From: a virus
Strand: one strand, 5' to 3'
Virus record (IMG/VR): IMGVR_UViG_3300022591_000009
Coordinates: 1 to 59,131 of that record
Length of the DNA stretch: 59,131 bases
The notes under the pieces are model-generated. The model was not told the origin of the DNA. It did no database searches and saw only the letters and a list, made by a program, of their open reading frames with translations. Below, one piece after another: positions 4,510-57,595 of this stretch. How positions within the stretch are numbered: position 1 is the stretch's first letter; every line of letters begins with the position of its first letter. The translations under genes were made by a program, and so were the position numbers.

Positions 4510-4636
4510 AGAAAAGGCTAAGAAGTCTGGCGCCAAGAACCCTGCGGCTGTAGCTGCAGCGGCTGGCGACAAGAAGTACGGAAAAGAAAAGATGGCCAAA
4601 ATGGCCGCTAAGGGTAAGGCGAAAGGTAAAAAGTAA
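4457..4636 (+). CDS. Small Lys/Ala-rich basic protein
   Basis: A 59-residue protein starting MAAKKPKLGSGARFAAIE, with an AAGDKKYGKEKMAKMAAKG segment. The LGSGARF plus KKYGK pattern recurs in small phage proteins encoded beside capsid or neck genes. It is strongly basic and probably binds nucleic acid or is a minor virion component; no direct evidence. Its start lies inside the previous gene, and its TAA overlaps the next ATG (TAATG). Confidence 0.65.
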   Translation: MAAKKPKLGSGARFAAIEEKAKKSGAKNPAAVAAAAGDKKYGKEKMAKMAAKGKAKGKK

Positions 4637-4911
4637 TGACTGACGAAACAACACCAGTAGCAGTAGATGCTACAGATGCAGCTTCTGCTGTAGAAGAGAC
4701 CGCACCTGTTGAGGCACCTGTTGCCGATGACGCTGCGCCAGTAGACGCCCCTGCAGATGACTCAGCTCCTGTAGCTGATGACTCAACAGATTCAGCCGAC
4801 GACTCAGAAGATGACTCAGCTGACGACTCAGATGACGACTGTGATTGCGATGGAGATTGCGATTGCGACGATGCTGATGAGGATGAAGATTCAGACGAGG
4901 ACGCCGAATAA
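4636..4911 (+). CDS. Highly acidic Asp/Ala-rich protein with Cys-Asp cluster
   Basis: A 91-residue low-complexity protein: an Ala/Pro/Val/Asp-rich first half, then an Asp/Ser run and a CDCDGDCDCDD motif around residues 69-79, ending in Glu/Asp. Almost no basic residues. It sits between very basic neighbours, overlapping each by one base (TAATG at both ends), so acidic and basic products are made together. It may be a charge partner of the basic proteins or a divalent-metal binder; both ideas are inference. The composition argues against a globular enzyme. Confidence 0.75.
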   Translation: MTDETTPVAVDATDAASAVEETAPVEAPVADDAAPVDAPADDSAPVADDSTDSADDSEDDSADDSDDDCDCDGDCDCDDADEDEDSDEDAE

Positions 4912-28301: not shown

Positions 28302-28754
28302 ATGGAAAACGATGCCATCGACTCAGCGTTTGCTGGTCTGGATGTTTACTATCCAGGTAGCAAGCGTAAACGTCGTGACCTCGTAAAGCCTGAGCCAAAA
28401 GTTCAGGCGAGCTGGGATGCTAAGCCATACATCAAGACCTTACCTAGCGGTAAGGACATTGAGATGTTCACACTTGGCGCCTTAGCGGACGCGTTGGGTC
28501 GCCCTCTAATAACTATACGTGCATGGTTAAAAGAGGGTTACCTGCCTGCGTCGCCTTATCGGTTACCTACAAAGACCGATAAAAACGGGAAACAGCACAA
28601 CGGTCGTCGGCTTTACACAAGGCCAATGATTGAAGAGGCTGTGAGAATCTTTACGAGCAGTGGCATTATTGCCATGAAACGTATAGACTGGTCTCAGCAT
28701 AAAGCGGTCTCTAAAGAGATTGCCGATGCTTGGGACAAACTGATAGAAGACTAA
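28302..28754 (+). CDS. MerR-like helix-turn-helix protein
   Basis: A 150-residue protein with an unstructured basic N-terminus (GSKRKRRDLVKPEP) and a MerR/excisionase-like winged helix: FTLGALADALGRPLITIRAW followed by LKEGYLPASPYRLP and GRRLYTRPMIEEAV. Likely a DNA-binding regulator or replication accessory. Two bases separate it from the upstream stop. Confidence 0.7.
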   Translation: MENDAIDSAFAGLDVYYPGSKRKRRDLVKPEPKVQASWDAKPYIKTLPSGKDIEMFTLGALADALGRPLITIRAWLKEGYLPASPYRLPTKTDKNGKQHNGRRLYTRPMIEEAVRIFTSSGIIAMKRIDWSQHKAVSKEIADAWDKLIED

Positions 28755-33421: not shown

Positions 33422-33752
33422 GGGACAAAAGGAGTCTAGGAAACACGAGGACCGACTCGCAAAGAAGATTGACGGAAAGCGCAACGCTGGGAGCGGAGCT
33501 TTTTGGAGTCGGAAGGGTGACGTCCGTTCAGACGACCTGCTTATTGAGCATAAGTGGACGGGCAAATCCCAATTCACCGTCAAATCGGTGGAGTTGGAGA
33601 AGATTGTCAATGAAGCAATTCTAGACAGTCGGACACCTGTACTTGGTTTCCATCTTAACGGCAACAACTATGTAATGTTGACCGAAGACGATTACCTTGA
33701 GCTCCGCCACTACGTCCAGGAGCATAACCTTTGTACAAAGGAGACCCTATAG
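33411..33752 (+). CDS. Putative Holliday junction resolvase-like nuclease (PD-(D/E)XK)
   Basis: A 113-residue protein assigned to TTG 33411, which has GAGG six bases upstream; the frame is open further 5' inside recA. The core is KHEDRLAKKIDGKRNAGSGA then DVRSDDLLIEHKWT, a D...ExK nuclease motif as in archaeal Hjc or phage endonucleases, followed by a helix TVKSVELEKIVNEAI. It overlaps recA by 11 bp and the WhiB gene by 22 bp. Probable role: processing recombination intermediates. Confidence 0.7.
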   Translation: MRTKGQKESRKHEDRLAKKIDGKRNAGSGAFWSRKGDVRSDDLLIEHKWTGKSQFTVKSVELEKIVNEAILDSRTPVLGFHLNGNNYVMLTEDDYLELRHYVQEHNLCTKETL

Positions 33753-34039
33753 ATAGATGGGAAAATCATGCCAAATGTATCGGCATGGACACAGAGATGT
33801 GGTTCCCACCTAGAGATAAAACAAAGTACAAGCCAATTGCAGATAAGGCCAAGGCTATATGTTTTGGCAAGGACGGTAAGCCCGAGTGCCCAGTGCGTAA
33901 GGAATGCCTACTATCAGCAATAGAGATTGATGAGCAGCACGGTATATTCGGCGGCATGAGTCACCGAGAGCGTAATGCACTTCAGCGCAAGGCAGAGAAG
34001 CACAATATGACCGTAGAAGCGTGGATTAATAAGAAGTAA
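33731..34039 (+). CDS. WhiB-family [4Fe-4S] transcription factor
   Basis: A 102-residue WhiB-like protein with four Fe-S cysteines, C16, C44, C53 and C59 (AKCIG, AICFG, ECPVRKEC), the GIFGGMS turn (residues 71-77; usually G[VI]WGG) and a basic DNA-binding tail RERNALQRKAEK. WhiB proteins are confined to Actinobacteria and their phages and bind sigma-A. Mycobacteriophage TM4 WhiB represses host whiB2 and affects septation and superinfection. The start is TTG 33731 with AGGAG eight bases upstream. Confidence 0.92.
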   Translation: MYKGDPIDRWENHAKCIGMDTEMWFPPRDKTKYKPIADKAKAICFGKDGKPECPVRKECLLSAIEIDEQHGIFGGMSHRERNALQRKAEKHNMTVEAWINKK

Positions 34040-35379: not shown

Positions 35380-35915
35380 TGCCCATTAAAGTATTTGATG
35401 GTGGTTTGCGCGGTAACACGGTACACGTAGGAATAGACCAGTCCTACAGTGGCTTCGCCATAACCATGCTCAACCAGTCTGGGCACTACACCACCGTCTA
35501 TAAGCCTGACTCCAGAGGCATACAGCGTTTAGCAGACCTGCGTACACATTTAATATCCAGTTTGATTGACTACAACATCCTAGACATAGCCATTGAGGGC
35601 TACGCCTTTGGTTCCCAGATGGCTAACATGCTGGGAGAGCTGGGCGGAATGGTTAAGTTAACCTTGCATGATTGGGGCATGTATCCCTTGATAGTTCCAC
35701 CCACCAGCCTCAAGAAGTACGTGGCAGGTAAGGGCAACGGCGTAAGTAAAAGCCAGATGCTACTGCAGGTATACAAGAACTGGAACGTAGAGTTCACCGA
35801 TGACAACGCCGCAGACTCGTATTCATTGGCTCGTGTCGTGTCCGCGTCGCATACATTTGCTTACCAAAAAGAGGTGTACGATAAGCTCCAAGACCCAAAG
35901 TTCAGGGAGCGGTAA
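35379..35915 (+). CDS. RuvC-like Holliday junction resolvase
   Basis: A 178-residue RNase H-fold resolvase: first Asp in HVGIDQSYSG (D20), Glu in LDIAIEGYAFG (E73), and the C-terminal acidic helix TDDNAADSYSLAR (D142 and D146). The conserved mid-region GQ-like PPTSLKKYVAGKGNGVSKSQM matches phage RuvC proteins. It resolves branched DNA before packaging. Second resolvase-type gene in the module, after the one at 33411. Confidence 0.85.
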   Translation: MPIKVFDGGLRGNTVHVGIDQSYSGFAITMLNQSGHYTTVYKPDSRGIQRLADLRTHLISSLIDYNILDIAIEGYAFGSQMANMLGELGGMVKLTLHDWGMYPLIVPPTSLKKYVAGKGNGVSKSQMLLQVYKNWNVEFTDDNAADSYSLARVVSASHTFAYQKEVYDKLQDPKFRER

Positions 35916-36106
35916 TGGACGAGCTATACCTGCCTAAGCCAAAGGATATTAACTTTGGCGAGCTTAGGCGGAAGGAGCAGACCAAGTACTACCAAGAACG
36001 GGTTAGAGAAGTAATCAGTGCCATCCTAGAATCTGATGACTTGCCTGAGAAATTCCGCCGTGCCTTGGAAATAATTGACGACTACACCTTCTACCTAGGA
36101 GACTAA
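35915..36106 (+). CDS. Small hypothetical protein
   Basis: A 63-residue charged helical protein (KEQTKYYQERVREVISAILE) coupled to the RuvC gene by a TAATG overlap. No recognised family. Ends one base before the next ATG. Confidence 0.5.
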   Translation: MDELYLPKPKDINFGELRRKEQTKYYQERVREVISAILESDDLPEKFRRALEIIDDYTFYLGD

Positions 36107-36247
36107 ATGACAGACGAAGACTTCAACCCAGAGGACTTAGACGAAGACCTGATTGACTGGGAAGATGATTGGGAAGACCTTGAGCCTTTTGATGAGGACG
36201 ACTTTGACGATTTAGATGACGAAGAAGAAGACGAAGATGACGAATAG
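36107..36247 (+). CDS. Small extremely acidic protein
   Basis: A 46-residue protein with about 60 percent Asp/Glu and not one Lys or Arg, except for Trp/Phe/Leu anchors (DWEDDWEDLEPF). DNA-mimic inhibitors such as Ocr, gam-like or Ugi-like proteins are acidic but larger; a mimic or an electrostatic partner is only a guess. It overlaps the next gene by 11 bp. Confidence 0.6.
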   Translation: MTDEDFNPEDLDEDLIDWEDDWEDLEPFDEDDFDDLDDEEEDEDDE

Positions 36248-50901: not shown

Positions 50902-52890
50902 TTAGTGTCTAACTGATAACTGGTCTTTTACTACACGGCGAGCGACACCAACTAGGTCGGCTGGCTTTGCAACCGCCGTGAAGTGGGTCGCACCATGACC
51001 GAGGCGCTTAATCTCGTTGTCAAGGTACTGTCGCTTATCGTTCAGGTCTGTAATATGGTCGGTATAAATACTACCTAGATACACAATACAGACGACAACG
51101 CCTTCGTTCATAAGGGTCTTGACCAACAGGTCGTTGTCCTTCTCGTTGCCCCACGTACCGTCAGTTACAATAAAAAGTAACTTGGTAGGCTTTGCCGAGG
51201 CGCGGAATAGTCGGAGGCTGGTACGCAACCCCTCAATCGGGTCAGTACCGCCTGACGACTTGAGAGACTTATACTCATTTGGTTTAGCCTTCTCGTCACT
51301 CATATATACGTTGCGCGAGACATGGTTAAACGTCATGGCAGTTACGTTGGCGTTGATACGCTCTAGCCCACGCTTGATAGCCCACACCGCTTGGCTTGCT
51401 TGGTCAATCTGACCACCCATTGAGCCTGAACGGTCAAGCATAATAACTGACTCAATATCACAGTTATCGTTGCCTTGCGACCACTTATCGAACAGGCGAG
51501 GCAGGTCGTTAATACCTGCGTTCATGGTGCGTGGGATATTTAACTTACCGCTAGGGCGTTCCTTCTCCCACTCAGGGTCATTGTCCACGCGTAGGCGCTC
51601 TAACTCTGTACCGAACATATTAGAAGCGTGACGAAACGCGGGGTCAATATTAGAGTAGTAGGTGAACGCCGTATCCTTGCGGAGGTTATTGCCTACACCG
51701 TCACCGTTAATAGCCTTCATAACAGTTTTAGTCTCAGCCTTAACTTGTGGCAGTTTAGATATAGCTTCTGCACGCTCGTTGATAAGTGCGACAATATCGT
51801 CAAGCCCGCTAAAGTCTTTCTGCGGTACAACTACGTCAGGTGTATCTGAATCGCCAGCACCTTTACTAGGCTTGTCATTATCTTTATCCTTGTTGTCAGG
51901 CTTGTTATCACTTGGCTTGATAGGCTCGCTTTCGCCTTCGCCTTCACGTGCTTCGGCTTGGAGACGTGCCTGCTCTGAACCTTTGGCAGGACGACCGCCA
52001 CGCATAACCTTACGACCACCGCAACCGCCGTTCTTTGGCGGGGTTGAGCCTACGTACTCATACATACGCATAATTAGCTCTTTAGCACGTTGGCTATCGT
52101 TAGGGAAGGCTAGAGTACGGTACTCGTCAATAATCTCAGCCACGGCTAACGCTTGCTCTACACCATACTTATCTACGTATAACTCCGCGATACGTTGGCG
52201 CAAGTCCATGTCAAGATGACGGCGACCGCGAGTGATATAGAAGGCATTAGGAATAGAATCAGGGTCTTTAGTATCTATGGCATAGGTACTGACGGCAGAC
52301 TCTAGAAAGTAACGCGTACTAGGATACTTAGTAGTTAGCAGGGTTTCGATACGACCTTCCTCTAGCGTATTAAACGCGAGCTGATAGCGTGGAGTGACCA
52401 TGCGCCCAAAATGGACGACATGGGTGGCTACCCACTTGCCGAGTTCGCTACCCGACCGTGGAGAGTAGAGAGCATGAGCGAGTTCGTGATAGTTCACGCC
52501 GTTCATAGCGACCACGCTCGTATCGTTGATATTGTCGAGCAACTTAGGGTTCATAGCAATAACAGAGCCGTTATTACTTGCAACCGAATCCATGTCACGG
52601 TTGGCAGGACTAATAACTACCTCAATATCTTGGTTAGCAAGAATCCTATCTGCCTTAGTATAGATATTAGCCACGCTATCGTATTGGGAGGCAAGGTCGG
52701 AGAGCGAATCCTGATAGATAGTATTCGCCTCCTCCTCTAAATCCCACTTGATACGGTAGTTAGTGCCCGTGTTCCAATACTCCGAGGTTGCCACGCTATC
52801 GGTAGGGTCAATACCCATGCTGATAAGGTGGTCGTTACGTACCTGCTCAACTAGGTCATGCCACTTAATAGGCTCATTATTATTTGACAT
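50902..52890 (-). CDS. VWA-domain protein with zincin-like HELAH motif
   Basis: A 662-residue protein. The N-terminal half contains NYHELAHALYSPRSG (H135-E136-H139), a HExxH zinc-protease-type motif, and a FNTLEEGRIET helix about 40 residues on that could give the third ligand, as in DUF2201/CobT-like putative metallopeptidases. A Pro/Lys/Asp-rich linker follows (about residues 300-350). The C-terminal half is a von Willebrand A domain with MIDAS LDRSGSMGG (D486), GGTDP and VTDGTW. One-base overlap with the upstream MoxR-like ATPase gene marks them as partners. Confidence 0.85.
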   Translation of the reverse strand: MSNNNEPIKWHDLVEQVRNDHLISMGIDPTDSVATSEYWNTGTNYRIKWDLEEEANTIYQDSLSDLASQYDSVANIYTKADRILANQDIEVVISPANRDMDSVASNNGSVIAMNPKLLDNINDTSVVAMNGVNYHELAHALYSPRSGSELGKWVATHVVHFGRMVTPRYQLAFNTLEEGRIETLLTTKYPSTRYFLESAVSTYAIDTKDPDSIPNAFYITRGRRHLDMDLRQRIAELYVDKYGVEQALAVAEIIDEYRTLAFPNDSQRAKELIMRMYEYVGSTPPKNGGCGGRKVMRGGRPAKGSEQARLQAEAREGEGESEPIKPSDNKPDNKDKDNDKPSKGAGDSDTPDVVVPQKDFSGLDDIVALINERAEAISKLPQVKAETKTVMKAINGDGVGNNLRKDTAFTYYSNIDPAFRHASNMFGTELERLRVDNDPEWEKERPSGKLNIPRTMNAGINDLPRLFDKWSQGNDNCDIESVIMLDRSGSMGGQIDQASQAVWAIKRGLERINANVTAMTFNHVSRNVYMSDEKAKPNEYKSLKSSGGTDPIEGLRTSLRLFRASAKPTKLLFIVTDGTWGNEKDNDLLVKTLMNEGVVVCIVYLGSIYTDHITDLNDKRQYLDNEIKRLGHGATHFTAVAKPADLVGVARRVVKDQLSVRH

Positions 52891-54269
52891 TACGCGCTCA
52901 CTTCGTCTGCGCTGGCAGAGGTCACGAAGGTCTTAACGCCGAGTTCGTCAGCGATACGAGACTTGTAGGTATCCATGACCAACTTAACTGCGCCACGTTC
53001 GCCTGACTTATCATCAAACCCATTTAGATAAGAATACATAGCGTAATCCAATCCAAGCGAATTGACGTTAGTAACGAAGCCAACGAGTGCGCGGGTAGAG
53101 ATAGGCGTGTTAATTTCCTCAAGGTCGTAACGCTTACGAAGCGCCTCAGCCATTTCGAGGAGAGCCTTACTCTTAACTAGCTTAGTCTCAATAGTCTTGT
53201 CGTATGGAAACTCTAGGATATGACCCTTCATAAATCGGTCGTGCCATGCTTGGTTCATAGGGCGCGTGCCACGATAGTCGGGGTTCATGTCTGCAATAAT
53301 AAGCAGGTCTTTATGAGCCTTGATAACTTCGCCACCATTGGCAAGCAACTGAATCTCACGGCGGTCGTCCAAAAGTCCAAACAGGACAGTTGTTACTCGC
53401 TCAGGGATAAAGTTCACTTCATTTAGGAGAAGCACACCACCGTTGCGTACCATGTCGGTAACTGCGCCGTCTTGCCACTTGTAGTGACCGTCTGCGGTAG
53501 GAATCCATTGACCAAACAGTTCAGAAGGTTCTAACCCATTATGACTAGATACGTTGTAGTAGCGGTGACCACGTGAGCCAGCGTAAGCAAGGGCGCACAT
53601 AGTCTTACCCGAGCCAGCATGACCTTTGATAAGGACGTTCTGCTGGTTCTTAAACGCAACGTCTAGAATATCGAAATCTTTGACACCACTAACAGTTCGG
53701 TTAATATAAGTATCTGCCCATTTGCGGTCAGGTACGGTAGCCATAGCTAGGCTGATAGAAGGTGCGGATACAGTAACAGGCTCTTTAATAGCCTCAGTAA
53801 TAACAGGCTCAGTAACAGAAGCAGAGGTGACCACCGTAGAAAAATCGGGGGTTGGAGACTCTGCTAATGGGCTAAGTACGATAGGAGAGTTACGGCGCTT
53901 ATCGGCAATATAATCGTTAAGCGAGTTATCCCCAAGATAGAGACGGCGAGCCACGTTAGAGGCTAGTGTCTTGTGATTACCTGCGAACGAGAGTTCGGGT
54001 AATGGGTCACTCATAAGTGCCTTAGTAGCAATACCGCCGACCTGACCTTGGCTAATCATTTCGTAATCACGCAAGGTAAGGACAACTGCAATAGGGCTGG
54101 TTAGTGTTGTGGTAAGTGGCAAGACGTTAAAGTCTGTCTTGTGCCACGCTTGACCCGCACCGCGCTCGCCTGTAGCGATACGGTGATAGACAACGGCTTC
54201 GTTGCCGTCAGGTACAACGAGACTTTGCTCGCAAGCATTGTCTCCGCTAGTGATAAGTATTCCGAGCAT
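52890..54269 (-). CDS. MoxR/CobS-type AAA+ ATPase
   Basis: About 459 residues from ATG 54269; ATG 54290 and 54335 in the same frame are alternatives. An N-terminal domain of about 180 residues is followed by an AAA+ core: Walker A IKGHAGSGKT (residues ~216-223), Walker B VLLLNEVN (~279-286), sensor-type IIADMNPDYRGTRPM and an arginine-finger region WHDRFMKGH. MoxR ATPases act with VWA proteins as metal-centre or protein-complex chaperones; the partner gene follows directly. Confidence 0.85.
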   Translation of the reverse strand: MLGILITSGDNACEQSLVVPDGNEAVVYHRIATGERGAGQAWHKTDFNVLPLTTTLTSPIAVVLTLRDYEMISQGQVGGIATKALMSDPLPELSFAGNHKTLASNVARRLYLGDNSLNDYIADKRRNSPIVLSPLAESPTPDFSTVVTSASVTEPVITEAIKEPVTVSAPSISLAMATVPDRKWADTYINRTVSGVKDFDILDVAFKNQQNVLIKGHAGSGKTMCALAYAGSRGHRYYNVSSHNGLEPSELFGQWIPTADGHYKWQDGAVTDMVRNGGVLLLNEVNFIPERVTTVLFGLLDDRREIQLLANGGEVIKAHKDLLIIADMNPDYRGTRPMNQAWHDRFMKGHILEFPYDKTIETKLVKSKALLEMAEALRKRYDLEEINTPISTRALVGFVTNVNSLGLDYAMYSYLNGFDDKSGERGAVKLVMDTYKSRIADELGVKTFVTSASADEVSA

Positions 54270-54294
54270 AATATATGACTTCCCTTTCATATCT

Positions 54295-54315
54295 GAATAG
54301 GCGCTTTGCCTATTC
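54295..54315 (-). promoter_or_regulatory. 5'-UTR hairpin upstream of MoxR gene
   Basis: GAATAGGC and GCCTATTC form an 8-bp stem with a 5-base loop just upstream of the start, followed by GAAAGGGAA. May influence translation or start choice. Confidence 0.45.
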
Positions 54316-54449
54316 GTAGTTACACCTACACCCACTCAACATATATAGCCTCCGATATATTCCCGCCTTCATAAAAAAAGTCGGGGTTGGCTATCTAAGT
54401 AGGTAGCAGATATAGAGAGAACAGTAATAGAGAGAGAGATAGAAGGATA

Positions 54450-54476
54450 CTCAGGCGGTGCTCAGCTAACTCTCAG
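54450..54476 (+). repeat. Phased CTCAG array A, three copies at 11-bp period
   Basis: CTCAG at 54450, 54461 and 54472, each followed by a six-base spacer, so copies fall on the same face of the helix. Upstream of the MoxR-VWA operon. A degenerate fourth (CTCTC) sits at 54483. Confidence 0.85.
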
Positions 54477-54687
54477 GAATCTCTCTCTGCTCTCTGGCTA
54501 GTTATTAGATACTCTCCAGCCACTTATCACCTAGTACCCAACCGAATAGCTGTTTAATCTGGTCGCTCTCCTACTCAGCCTATTAGCACTCTCCGACAGT
54601 AGCCGAAACTGCCATTTGGCTGGTTATTAGTTGCTAATTGGGCAGGTATTAGCTGTAGCTCATAGCTGGCTGGGCAGGAATTGTCAA

Positions 54688-54725
54688 TTCAGCCTGTGCT
54701 CAGCTGGCTCTCAGGATTCTCTCAG
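54688..54725 (+). repeat. Phased CTCAG array B, four copies at 11-bp period
   Basis: TTCAG at 54688, then CTCAG at 54699, 54710 and 54721, all 11 bp apart. Largest of the five arrays, about 75 bp from the parS site. Confidence 0.85.
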
Positions 54726-54785
54726 CTTGACAGGCAGGCTTTCCTAGGGAACAAGTTCCTTATGCCTTAACCCAATGCCACAAAT

Positions 54786-54795
54786 GTTTGGGTTG
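54786..54795 (-). promoter_or_regulatory. GTTTGGGTTG motif (CAACCCAAAC on minus strand)
   Basis: One of seven copies in the leftward arm (50846, 54786, 55207, 56210, 56341, 57643, 58669), nearly all in intergenic or leader sequence. See findings. Confidence 0.5.
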
Positions 54796-54801
54796 GGCAT
54801 G

Positions 54802-54815
54802 GTTTCACGTGAAAC
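54802..54815. other. Perfect parS (ParB-binding) site
   Basis: GTTTCACGTGAAAC, the 14-bp palindrome that is the chromosomal parS consensus in Streptomyces and Mycobacterium. A chance exact match in 59 kb has probability about 2 in 10,000. No ParA/ParB gene is in the window, so host ParB would have to bind it. Confidence 0.75.
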
Positions 54816-54821
54816 AGGCAT

Positions 54822-54860
54822 AAAAAAAGCCCCACCAGCACGTGGCTGGCAGGGCTTCTT
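54822..54860 (-). terminator. Intrinsic terminator after 54873 gene
   Basis: On the minus strand AAGCCCTGCCAGC and GCTGGTGGGGCTT pair, followed by a run of seven T. Ends transcription between the gene at 54873 and the parS/array region. Confidence 0.85.
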
Positions 54861-54872
54861 CTCTATATCTAG

Positions 54873-55184
54873 CTACATACTAGATACTGATTGCTTCCAG
54901 AGCTCAAATAGCTCGCGCTCGCTCTTAGCTGGCTGGTTTTTGTTCTCCAGCAGGGCTTCGAGGTGCTTTAGCTCAGCTACGAGCTTGTTGATACGGTCTT
55001 GCTTCTTACGCAACTTAGCTGATTTGGACTTGGAGTGGTGGTTGATATCTAATCCAGCCTCTTTGCAGAAGCCTTCATAGAGCTTTAGGTATTCAGCGCG
55101 ATAGGTTTTTGCCAATTCGCGCATAGCTTTCTGGCGACATACATTTACTGCGGTCGCTTTCTGACGTGGTGTGAGTGTTGTCAT
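54873..55184 (-). CDS. Hypothetical coiled-coil protein
   Basis: A 103-residue basic protein from ATG 55184 (AAAAGG upstream); longer in-frame starts lie in the promoter region. N-terminal helical segment (TPRQKATAVNVCRQKAMREL), then a heptad coil KLRKKQDRINKLVAELKHLEALLEN. Monocistronic with its own upstream element and a strong terminator. Could be a DNA- or partner-binding coiled coil; function unknown. Confidence 0.6.
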   Translation of the reverse strand: MTTLTPRQKATAVNVCRQKAMRELAKTYRAEYLKLYEGFCKEAGLDINHHSKSKSAKLRKKQDRINKLVAELKHLEALLENKNQPAKSERELFELWKQSVSSM

Positions 55185-55223
55185 GCCTTTTCTTTCTCTA
55201 GTGTGGGTTTGGGTTGTGAATAC

Positions 55224-55249
55224 ATGGTGTAACGCCCCCGCTACACCAT
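55224..55249. promoter_or_regulatory. Inverted repeat in promoter region of 54873 gene
   Basis: ATGGTGTA (55224-55231) and TACACCAT (55242-55249), 8-bp arms, 10-base spacer. The arms contain the GTTACACC-type motif found also upstream of the MoxR and DUF932 genes, so it may be an operator. Confidence 0.4.
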
Positions 55250-55281
55250 ATATTCCGAACAGAACGGATGGGAAAGTACCC

Positions 55282-55599
55282 CTACTGTTCCTCAGTAAAA
55301 CCTTTCGTTGCATCAACAATAGAGTCGTATTCCTCTATCTCCGCCAGCATGGACTCCTTGTCCCGTTCTGATAATAGCTCTGCTAGTAGTCTGACCTGTG
55401 ACTTGTTGATAACATCCACAATGAATGTCATTACATTGTTCACAACGATACCTCGAGCCTCATCATCAAATGGGTGGTCGGTACATGATTCTAACCAGCC
55501 TATAAAGTCTGAAGCGTCATGCGCCACATCATACATAGTCTGTTTTAAGATGTCTGGCAGGGTAATTGGTGCAATTACCATGGGGTCTTGGGTAATCAT
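55282..55599 (-). CDS. Hypothetical helical protein
   Basis: A 105-residue acidic helical protein (ITLPDILKQTMYDVAHDASDF, SQVRLLAELLSERDKES). ATGA overlap with the upstream gene on the same strand. No family recognised. Confidence 0.5.
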   Translation of the reverse strand: MITQDPMVIAPITLPDILKQTMYDVAHDASDFIGWLESCTDHPFDDEARGIVVNNVMTFIVDVINKSQVRLLAELLSERDKESMLAEIEEYDSIVDATKGFTEEQ

Positions 55600-55745
55600 T
55601 TGTACTCCTTCGTTACTTCATCTACTGGCAGACTCCATATGTCACACCAGCCTGCCTCTTTGGTCTTTAGGACAACTCGCCCACTCTCATAGGTTTCTAC
55701 GAGATAGAAGCGTTCTCCCTCTTGGAATATATGTTGCCTTACCAT
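55596..55745 (-). CDS. Small hypothetical protein
   Basis: A 49-residue protein (MVRQHIFQEGERFYLVETYE... AGWCDIWSLPVDE) that overlaps the next gene by four bases (ATGA) and the upstream gene by seven. Beta-rich, SH3-like in style. Small and missed by length filters; reading frame is fully consistent with the operon. Confidence 0.6.
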   Translation of the reverse strand: MVRQHIFQEGERFYLVETYESGRVVLKTKEAGWCDIWSLPVDEVTKEYK

Positions 55746-56047
55746 TCTTTATCCTCCTGTCCGACGATGTCGTAGAAACCTGAACCTAGTTCTACGGTCT
55801 TTACTGTGGATATGAAACGTAGCCCGCAAGAATTGTCATACCAATCTCTTAACAGGTTAAACATTTCTTCTGGTGTAGAGTCCGTGGCTTTGATGAGTGG
55901 GTCGTAACCATACTCAGCCGTTTTCTCCATTTGCTCATCATCCATGAGGATGTAGATTTTGTGGCAGGTGTCCCACGCAATACCTGAGGCATTGTGCAGG
56001 GCGGTGCGAATTGCTTCGTCGTACTGACTTTTTACTTTGGTACTCAC
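55739..56047 (-). CDS. Hypothetical protein
   Basis: A 102-residue protein from GTG 56047 (GTGA overlap). Helical first half (DEAIRTALHNASGIAWDTC) and an acidic C-terminal part (ELGSGFYDIVGQEDKEW). Longer in-frame starts would run into the upstream gene. Unknown function. Confidence 0.5.
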   Translation of the reverse strand: MSTKVKSQYDEAIRTALHNASGIAWDTCHKIYILMDDEQMEKTAEYGYDPLIKATDSTPEEMFNLLRDWYDNSCGLRFISTVKTVELGSGFYDIVGQEDKEW

Positions 56048-56223
56048 TTGCGGAACCCCCTTACATACCATGTCGTCCATTTTGGGCGCATGGTCTTGAT
56101 GTCTATATAACGGACGGCTAGGTTGCCATTAGGCTTGGTATCAACTCTGATAACTAGCCCCTTATGATTATTGAGTTGTGTCTTGATGAGGCGCCCACGG
56201 CGCGGTAATGTTTGGGTTGGCAT
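56044..56223 (-). CDS. Small beta-rich protein
   Basis: A 59-residue protein from ATG 56223, which has a strong GGAGG seven bases upstream; GTG 56256 with AAAGGGAAAGC upstream is an alternative giving 70 residues. Sequence LIKTQLNNHKGLVIRVDTKP...VRYIDIKTMRPKWTTWYV suggests a small SH3-like or KOW-like barrel. First gene downstream of array C. Confidence 0.55.
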   Translation of the reverse strand: MPTQTLPRRGRLIKTQLNNHKGLVIRVDTKPNGNLAVRYIDIKTMRPKWTTWYVRGFRK

Positions 56224-56313
56224 TACTCCTCCTCCTTCATAGCGTTTTACTAGCACTTGCTTTCCCTTTCTAGTCTGTGTGTATATCTTATGGGTATGGC
56301 TGATAACGAGCTT

Positions 56314-56340
56314 CTCAGCCCGTGCTCAGGTAGTTCTCAG
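56314..56340 (+). repeat. Phased CTCAG array C, three copies at 11-bp period
   Basis: CTCAG at 56314, 56325 and 56336, directly abutting GTTTGGGTCG (56341) and the DnaA-box inverted repeat (56350-56387). Confidence 0.85.
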
Positions 56341-56349
56341 GTTTGGGTC

Positions 56350-56387
56350 GAGTTATCCACAGGCTGGGGATAACCTGTGGATAACTC
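56350..56387. other. Two DnaA boxes in a 14-bp inverted repeat (candidate origin)
   Basis: GAGTTATCCACAGG (56350-56363) and its perfect reverse complement CCTGTGGATAACTC (56374-56387) flank 10 bases. Each arm holds a consensus DnaA box, TTATCCACA (56353-56361) and TGTGGATAA (56376-56384), in opposite orientation. It is in a 140-bp gap also holding array C. It could be a replication origin element, or a hairpin terminator for the DUF932 gene (no T-run). Confidence 0.65.
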
Positions 56388-56399
56388 TTACCTAGTTAG

Positions 56400-57401
56400 T
56401 TATGCGAGAGCCTTGACGGCTGAGAGGATACGTGCCTTCTCGGCAGTAATCTGTGGGTCGAAGCCACTCGCAGCTGCCCAGACATTCTCGTTCGTACCCT
56501 TGCGGGCGAAGCGGTAATAATCTAAGCGCTCGGTGAGGGCTTGGAATGTTCCCCACGCAGTACCTTTGATATTGGTATTGGTAGGAGAGGTGTGGTACAG
56601 GTCGTTGAGAATGTTAATCTTATTTTCCCATTTAGTGACTGTGACCTTGGCTGAGCCAGACTCTGGCTTAGGATAGAGAGCCAAGATAATCTCATTAAAC
56701 TTGGCGTCTGATACGGCGGTCTCGAACAAGGCGCGAGCCTCATTCTCGAAGGCGTCCATATGGTTGAAGGTGAGCCCTAGGACTCGGCGAGCTTCATCAA
56801 CCCGTCCTGCAACCGTTGAGGTGTGGCGAACCTTAAAGCTCTGCTTAGAGCCTCGGAGCGCCATGTTGAGTGTGTTCTGGCACACAACTCTCACGGGTGT
56901 GATATTGGCTTGGATAGCAGCTGAACCGTCATGGCTCGTTGTTACTAGGAGATAAGTCTTAGTAACATCGTTAGCGCCGTCAGGGTCTAGGACAAACTCT
57001 CTCGGCACTACTAATGAGCCGAATACTACTTTGCCGTCCTTGATAGAGCCAGCGCTCTCCCATGAAGCACCGCCGTCGAGCACGCCGTCACCGAAGGAGA
57101 ATAGCTCCTCGTTCTGGAATACCTTGTAACGGTCACCGACAACGGAGAGCACGTCGGTGCCACCGTCAAACGGATTGGTTCTAACAACCAGCTGGTTATT
57201 AGCGTGAGAGCGATAGCCCTCGGGTACGGGCAAGGATTCCAAACGGACATCCCATGCGTTGAGCTTGGCAGCTTCGAGCATATCTGCCGTGGTTACGTGC
57301 GCGTCCTCGTCGAATAGGACGTTAGCGAGGTTGTGCCACGCTGGTGCACCGCGGAGAGCGAATGCAACTTCGCCGTCCTGCATTTCTAGGTTGTGAGCCA
57401 T
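56400..57401 (-). CDS. DUF932-type phage/plasmid-like protein
   Basis: A 333-residue protein matching the phage/plasmid-like DUF932 group: AFALRGAPAWHNLANVLFDE at the start, GDRYKVFQNEELFSFGDGV in the middle, and TPVRVVCQNTLNMALRG, KVRHTSTVAGRVDEARRVLG. These proteins occur in phages and plasmids and in defence or replication islands, but their function is not known. AAAGGGAAAGC upstream of the ATG. It lies between two array-bearing intergenic regions. Confidence 0.8.
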   Translation of the reverse strand: MAHNLEMQDGEVAFALRGAPAWHNLANVLFDEDAHVTTADMLEAAKLNAWDVRLESLPVPEGYRSHANNQLVVRTNPFDGGTDVLSVVGDRYKVFQNEELFSFGDGVLDGGASWESAGSIKDGKVVFGSLVVPREFVLDPDGANDVTKTYLLVTTSHDGSAAIQANITPVRVVCQNTLNMALRGSKQSFKVRHTSTVAGRVDEARRVLGLTFNHMDAFENEARALFETAVSDAKFNEIILALYPKPESGSAKVTVTKWENKINILNDLYHTSPTNTNIKGTAWGTFQALTERLDYYRFARKGTNENVWAAASGFDPQITAEKARILSAVKALA

Positions 57402-57459
57402 GCTTTCCCTTTCATGTCGTATATAAGCGCGGTGTTGCGGTTATATGCGGTAACTCTTG

Positions 57460-57473
57460 GTTACAGGTGTAAC
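57460..57473. promoter_or_regulatory. Palindrome GTTACAGGTGTAAC
   Basis: GTTACA and TGTAAC flank GG, a perfect 14-bp palindrome about 60 bp upstream of the DUF932 start. The half GTTACACC/GGTGTAAC recurs at 54319-54326 and 55226-55233, so it may be an operator shared by leftward promoters. Confidence 0.45.
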
Positions 57474-57500
57474 TTTATAGGTGGTTAGGTATTAGTGCCT

Positions 57501-57527
57501 CTCAGGTGGTGCTCAGGTGATTCTCAG
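57501..57527 (+). repeat. Phased CTCAG array D, three copies at 11-bp period
   Basis: CTCAG at 57501, 57512 and 57523. About 100 bp upstream of the DUF932 start. Confidence 0.85.
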
Positions 57528-57568
57528 CTAATCAACACGCCCGAGCGCGTGGTAACTCTCTCTAGCAA

Positions 57569-57595
57569 CTCAGCCTGTGCTCAGTTAATTCTCAG
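57569..57595 (+). repeat. Phased CTCAG array E, three copies at 11-bp period
   Basis: CTCAG at 57569, 57580 and 57591; a degenerate CTCTC at 57558 continues the phase. Confidence 0.85.

Follow-up and report, generated by a model that had tools for sequence, protein, structure and literature searches.

The viral record IMGVR_UViG_3300022591_000009 of the IMG/VR database, 59,131 bases long and referred to here over its full length as the window, carries arrays of the pentamer CTCAG repeated at steps of 11 bp. Comparison of sequences suggests, with a probability of about 0.78, that each array is a multimerised operator (a set of PhoP boxes) for a stress-response regulator that the host itself encodes, a protein of the Mycobacterium tuberculosis PhoP type. 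Since the same repeat precedes the phoP-type gene of the host, the protein that reads the arrays is very probably encoded by the host and not by the phage.

Arrays in the window

Exactly five arrays of the form CTCAG(N6)CTCAG(N6)CTCAG are present in the window. They lie on one strand at 54.4–57.6 kb and are spread over three intergenic regions within 3 kb, all between leftward genes. A first-pass annotation had drawn attention to them, and its coordinates, the 11-bp phase, the location on one strand and the placement in gaps between leftward genes are correct. Read toward the leftward genes the arrays show CTGAGA-N5, and the window unit can be written CTGAG(A/C)N5. In this direction four arrays have CTGAGCAC as their middle unit, and array 2, which has four units, has it as its third. 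The arrays are as follows:

54450–54476, minus strand: array 1, three CTGAG units with an 11-bp period; the AAA-ATPase gene follows after 115 bp; matrix score 20.5
54688–54725, minus strand: array 2, three CTGAG units (exact CTCAG at 54699–54725) and a degenerate fourth, the annotated TTCAG at 54688–54692 (CTGAA in gene direction), in register with the exact units; a TTGACA-like hexamer comes after the array; matrix score 23.9
56314–56340, minus strand: array 3, three units; the gene at 56044–56256 follows after 58 bp
57501–57527, minus strand: array 4, three units, with TATAAA 21 bp further on; the DUF932 gene follows after 100 bp
57569–57595, minus strand: array 5, three units; array 4 follows after 42 bp

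All five are upstream of genes in a single orientation, and they end 58–364 bp ahead of the next open reading frame (ORF). Comparison with shuffled and coding sequence bears out the annotation. No CTCAG triplets appear in windows simulated with Markov models of order 1, 2 and 4, and the letter-reversed window has none, compared with the five observed. The sole further CTCAG triplet in the window, at 4803–4831, has a 12-bp period and is within a repetitive coding stretch. It is inside an acidic low-complexity ORF (4636–4911) and represents a coding repeat, not an operator. When the window is scored with a matrix constructed only from the arrays of other phages, its five highest-scoring two-unit sites are the five arrays, with scores of 17–24; the best score on the reversed sequence is 5.9.

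Spread among phages

The IMG/VR scan shows CTGAG triplets in at least 120 stretches. Strict CTGAGA-N5 triplets, mostly intergenic, are found in 102 IMG/VR contigs that represent several phage types and have a GC content of about 45–50%. The letter-reversed pattern does not occur (0 throughout) in 47 chosen array-bearing records. Of 127 triplet arrays whose spacers are unequal, 92 fall outside called ORFs; the coding share of these loci is 84%. Phage arrays have 3–6 units, compared with about two in host promoters. The consensus of 249 units is CTGAGA(G/A)TTTC, a constant half followed by an AT-rich half. Pentamer and phase are conserved, as had been annotated, but the spacers are not free: the units share the AT-rich half.

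The carriers are of at least three phage types: the family of the window, a group of ~40-kb phages and others. A DNA similarity search with the window against phages gave no match. The window, itself incomplete, is related to two larger array-bearing phages, termed G019 (95.8 kb) and G037 (87.6 kb). All three share genes for DNA polymerase, RecA, WhiB, tail sheath and baseplate. The head and terminase part of the larger phages is missing from the window. G019 has four arrays 90–105 bp 5′ of four different ORFs, all co-oriented.

In the ~40-kb group, the arrays occupy non-coding DNA close to a terminase-like gene. Many of the array-bearing phages have palindromes near the arrays that resemble the actinobacterial LexA box; in the ~40-kb group these read GAACANNTGTTC (L045, L059, L065, L094 and others). 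WhiB is encoded by almost every phage, whether or not it has arrays. WhiB and the LexA-box-like palindromes together indicate actinobacterial hosts, and the hosts are probably small actinobacteria, putatively aquatic.

CTGAG triplets also occur in bacteria. A set of 77 bacterial contigs (L149–L225), mostly of high GC content, has CTGAG(N6)CTGAGCAC(N3)CTGAG, often as perfect tandem repeats. Many of these begin where the upstream gene ends, at its TGA stop, and this results in stops in all three frames. In Amycolatopsis (L180), a CTGAG triplet is 31 bp 5′ of a SARP-like gene.

A PhoP-type regulator gene with the same repeat

The host side was analysed in 53 small genomes (1.0–1.9 Mb) selected by size within one class; going by size and GC content, a tentative guess is that they are Nanopelagicales-like. 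These contain 16 exact CTGAGA-N5-CTGAGA pairs, compared with nine in the control. Six of the 16 are just 5′ of one operon, which encodes an OmpR-family response regulator and then a histidine kinase. In the PDB the regulator matches M. tuberculosis PhoP best (291 bits), followed by PrrA (182), MtrA (157) and RegX3 (156); by sequence, then, the regulator is nearer to M. tuberculosis PhoP than to the phosphate regulator RegX3. MprA had also been considered; the motif of Corynebacterium glutamicum MprA is TKTTAAGAAM, and this candidate was dropped once PhoP matched.

A phoP-type gene was found in 24 of the 36 small actinomycete genomes searched. The promoters of all 24 orthologues, which are 79–100% identical, have TCTCAG-N5-TCTCAG on the gene strand, with at most two mismatches in 12. 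The other strand gave 0/24, shuffled sequences 42/4800 and other spacings 0–6/24, and the motif is absent from the five paralogue promoters (0/5). Sites inside ctaG-like genes (L342, L343) are coding and were excluded from the operator counts. The sequence TCTCAGGAAACTCTCAG corresponds letter for letter to the reverse complement of the phage consensus CTGAGAGTTTCCTGAGA; host promoters such as that of L360 (TTCTCAGGAAACTCCCAG) are one letter away from it.

M. tuberculosis PhoP binds 7-bp direct repeats with a strict 4-bp spacer, and its structure on DNA is that of a tandem dimer; the recognition helix reads the motif, with the wing in the minor groove of the spacer (PMC4832192). Binding is tighter with three or four consecutive motifs than with two, and dimers, trimers and tetramers are formed (PMC4832192). 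The 11-bp period that results from motif plus spacer is that of the phage arrays. The tandem arrangement of three or four units and a site 5′ of the regulator's own gene (24 of 24 orthologues) are alike as well. In the arrays, too, two kinds of half take turns, a constant one (CTGAG) and an AT-rich one.

The known M. tuberculosis core, TCACAGC, differs from that of the arrays, TCTCAG(G/A), which equals the sites of the local PhoP orthologues. The difference has a counterpart in the protein. Asn212 and Ser216 of M. tuberculosis PhoP contact the third base of TCACAGC (PMC4832192); the 24 small-genome orthologues have Gly and Thr at these positions, and the third operator base is T (TCTCAGG). Covariation was followed in 47 promoters of wider actinomycetes, with cases counted where one motif fits better. 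Gly212 goes with TCTCAG in 24 cases against one and Asn212 with TCACAG in seven against none (Fisher p = 2e-6, kinship ignored). The window phage's host would belong to the Gly212-type clade of small actinomycetes.

The Asn212/TCACAG rule leads one to expect phages with arrays of the Asn type, and this prediction held in part. CTGTGAGTTTC repeats are found in L417 (GC 62%) and in L419, a WhiB-bearing 120-kb phage, and only a handful of the CTGTGA hits resemble these arrays. L417, L415 and L440 are phage contigs of 48–63% GC with CTGTGA-N5 arrays as expected for hosts with an Asn212-type PhoP.

Proposed function and alternatives

The proposal is that phosphorylated host PhoP would bind the arrays head to tail, with a single protomer on each 11-bp unit and three or four per array. 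This would couple the phage promoters to host PhoR/PhoP sensing, and with them a module made up of the AAA–VWA operon, the DUF932 gene and small genes, together with an ECF-sigma-like gene in the relatives. The annotation's concept of a cooperatively bound, phased array holds in kind, with one protomer expected per helical turn. The effect is most likely activation of an accessory or early phage module; in the window family activation is favoured because the arrays are upstream of genes, co-oriented and phased.

Several points weigh against this interpretation. The bacterial array counts are too low to prove a regulon alone: the pairs number 16 versus nine, and strict CTGAGA-type triplets are found in 5 of 395 sampled genomes of the class, with no small genome among the five. 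The comparison genomes were selected by size in one class. The covariation test is uncorrected for relatedness. With respect to the gene behind it, the phage repeat points the opposite way from the one in the host phoP promoter. The distance from array to −10 element varies across all phages, and a fixed distance was not found as a general rule. WhiB was rejected as the array reader, as it is equally common with and without arrays; its near-universal presence nevertheless leaves room for a contribution. Lastly, some ~40-kb phages have a TTGACA-N17-TATAAT element on the opposite strand, with the arrays immediately downstream of it.

This last arrangement suits a second possibility, that host PhoP binding represses the module while PhoP is phosphorylated, because arrays just downstream of this consensus promoter overlap its expected start site. 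There is a precedent in M. tuberculosis, where phoP is autoregulated from repeats downstream of +1 (PMC3413638). The window and G019, however, have arrays upstream of genes in one orientation that end before the ORF, at the 58–364 and 90–105 bp given above, and repression, most plausible for the ~40-kb group, is on the whole rather unlikely.

It is improbable that the arrays serve a phage-encoded regulator with the same specificity as host PhoP. Candidates include the MerR/BldC-like protein encoded at 28302–28754 and a small protein with a C-terminal helix–turn–helix-like stretch (G019 38021, G037 87132). The former is common to the window, G019 and G037, and BldC-type proteins do bind direct repeats head to tail (PMC5859096). 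The latter is found in array-bearing relatives only. The MerR-like protein was rejected as array reader, being confined to the window family, and other array-bearing phage types do not have it; the BldC consensus is AATTNNNNC, not CTGAG. Among candidate phage regulators only WhiB is near-universal. OmpR-type (PF00486) proteins number 0 in the 47 array-bearing records and WhiB occurs in both groups; other helix–turn–helix families were not systematically scanned. No PhoP homologue was found in the window, G019 or G037, and the repeat 5′ of the host regulator gene also speaks against a phage-encoded reader.

That the arrays are decoys which titrate host PhoP from its own genes is highly improbable: they have more units than host promoters, and more tandem units bind more tightly, but five sites per genome are few relative to usual regulator copy numbers, and the arrays are gene-proximal at particular operons and do not form one cluster.

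The annotation had also raised replication-initiator iterons, which are similarly very unlikely. An initiator would bind the arrays with DnaA boxes nearby, and there is one such pair of boxes in the window:

56353–56384, no strand assigned: two DnaA-box-like nonamers (TTATCCACA and TGTGGATAA), just upstream of array 3

Also, at ~8.7–9.0 kb in L419 the CTGTGAGTTTC arrays alternate with dense DnaA boxes, which resembles a compound control/origin region. The iteron option is unsupported because the arrays are 5′ of different operons in several promoter regions (three intergenic regions over 3 kb), and only one is near DnaA boxes. There is no single origin cluster next to an initiator gene, and the four arrays of G019 precede four ORFs. 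No DnaA boxes were found near the arrays in G019 and G037. In relatives without arrays, each promoter has one or two DnaA-like boxes, which point the same way as the gene.

Genes behind the arrays

The host PhoP-box interpretation connects the arrays to the following genes of the window, none of which is a phosphate-scavenging gene:

52890–54335, minus strand: AAA ATPase gene of the MoxR/dynein-related type (Pfam AAA_5, 2.9e-21), first gene of the operon behind arrays 1 and 2
50902–52890, minus strand: VWA-domain protein gene (Pfam VWA, 1.9e-5), same operon as the AAA gene
56044–56256, minus strand: small gene behind array 3, no function assigned, part of a small-gene operon
56400–57401, minus strand: DUF932 gene (Pfam DUF932, 5.2e-54), behind arrays 4 and 5

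The WhiB-family protein gene of the window phage is at 33731–34039.

A homologue of the AAA gene (52% identical) is found in G019, where a four-unit array is located 276 bp 5′ of it. The ECF-sigma-like part of G019 and G037 is missing from the window. The ECF-sigma-like genes directly behind arrays are:

G019 35617–36111: L285
G037 84444–84992: L293

This location suggests that the phage module may be a cascade. By eye, GGGAATAAAT is found 10 or 20–23 bp after the last CTGAG-like unit in G019 and G037, and in three promoters of these phages the promoter-like CCGTTATACAG is 14 bp beyond GGGAATAAAT.

Other motifs are present in the same part of the window. The sequence GGTTTCACGTGAAACA at 54801–54816 has 15 of the 16 letters of the ParB-binding parS consensus and shares the gap with arrays 1 and 2; it was not found in G019, G037 or five array-lacking relatives. 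GTTTGGGTTG is repeated at 1959, 48293, 50845, 54785, 55207, 56209 and 57642, mostly near gene ends or starts. Relatives have TTTGTTTGTGTTGG at similar places, followed by inverted repeats.

Relatives that lack arrays

The annotation had named loss of the phase in relatives as a refuting condition. Array loss was found: none of 15 related or partly related records has even a CTGAG pair (0/15), and no arrays were found in the DUF932 and AAA relatives L007–L013 and L025–L029. The same promoters, however, carry another conserved element. Five relatives (G447, G448, G449, G457 and G458) share AAA, VWA, DUF932 and other module genes and have no CTGAG pairs anywhere. Their module promoters have the DnaA-box-like nonamer TGTGGATAA, one or two per promoter, usually about 25–150 bp 5′ of genes and nearly always co-oriented with them. 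Of these boxes, 33 of 37 are in ORF-free DNA, which itself makes up 8–10% of the sequence. Module promoters with TGTGGATAA are at:

G447, 5.0–11.7 kb (L310)
G448, 4.0–11.2 kb (L323)

In G447 the nonamer is followed, by eye, by TGAAC repeats 11 bp apart, and an unbiased scan ranked GTTCA at 11 bp first. In G457 and G458, GTTATA repeats follow by eye; here the unbiased scan gave ATAAC at 11 bp as a weak signal only. As the module is shared and the promoter elements differ, one phage module seems able to exchange its control elements, a new lead that is not proven.

Comparison with known systems

SARP/AfsR proteins are OmpR-type winged-helix proteins that bind 11-bp direct repeats, and their heptamer repeats resemble the arrays in this respect. 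The difference is that neither the array-bearing phages tested nor the window has a SARP or other PF00486 protein.

BldC sites are like the arrays in head-to-tail cooperative binding and a variable number of units, but their consensus is AATTNNNNC (PMC5859096), and the part that the arrays conserve is CTGAG.

A parallel in kind is that of marine cyanophage Pho boxes, where phage genes are governed by a host two-component regulator of the OmpR/PhoB family (PMC10976474 and work cited there). Those boxes respond to phosphate starvation and are found at phosphate-related or replication genes, whereas the window arrays are without a phosphate gene. The present regulator is also nearer to M. tuberculosis PhoP (291 bits) than to RegX3 (156), the phages are actinophages and the arrays are long and exact. 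Unlike the M. tuberculosis PhoP boxes, the sites described here are phage-borne. Searches of open-access literature turned up cyanophage Pho boxes read by host PhoBR and no account of PhoP arrays in actinophages.

Significance

For most phages of small actinobacteria the sequence is all that is known, with neither host nor control of expression assigned. If the arrays are host PhoP operators, a short pattern would link genes of orphan phages to a host sensor and to a PhoP clade. A broader view can be offered tentatively, at somewhat less than even confidence: unrelated phages of small actinobacteria may have converged on host PhoP operators, with the host PhoPR envelope/stress sensor serving as a switch for an early module that reports infection or host state; within a family the promoters may be rewired from one host DNA-binding protein to another, between the PhoP box and TGTGGATAA with TGAAC or GTTATA repeats; and the operator letter that corresponds to residue 212 may be a signature of the host clade. 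The pairing of one operator base with one recognition residue is a testable rule of specificity. If true, the findings would show that phage genes can be governed by host two-component systems beyond marine cyanophages and phosphate, in actinophages and with a PhoP of the M. tuberculosis type.

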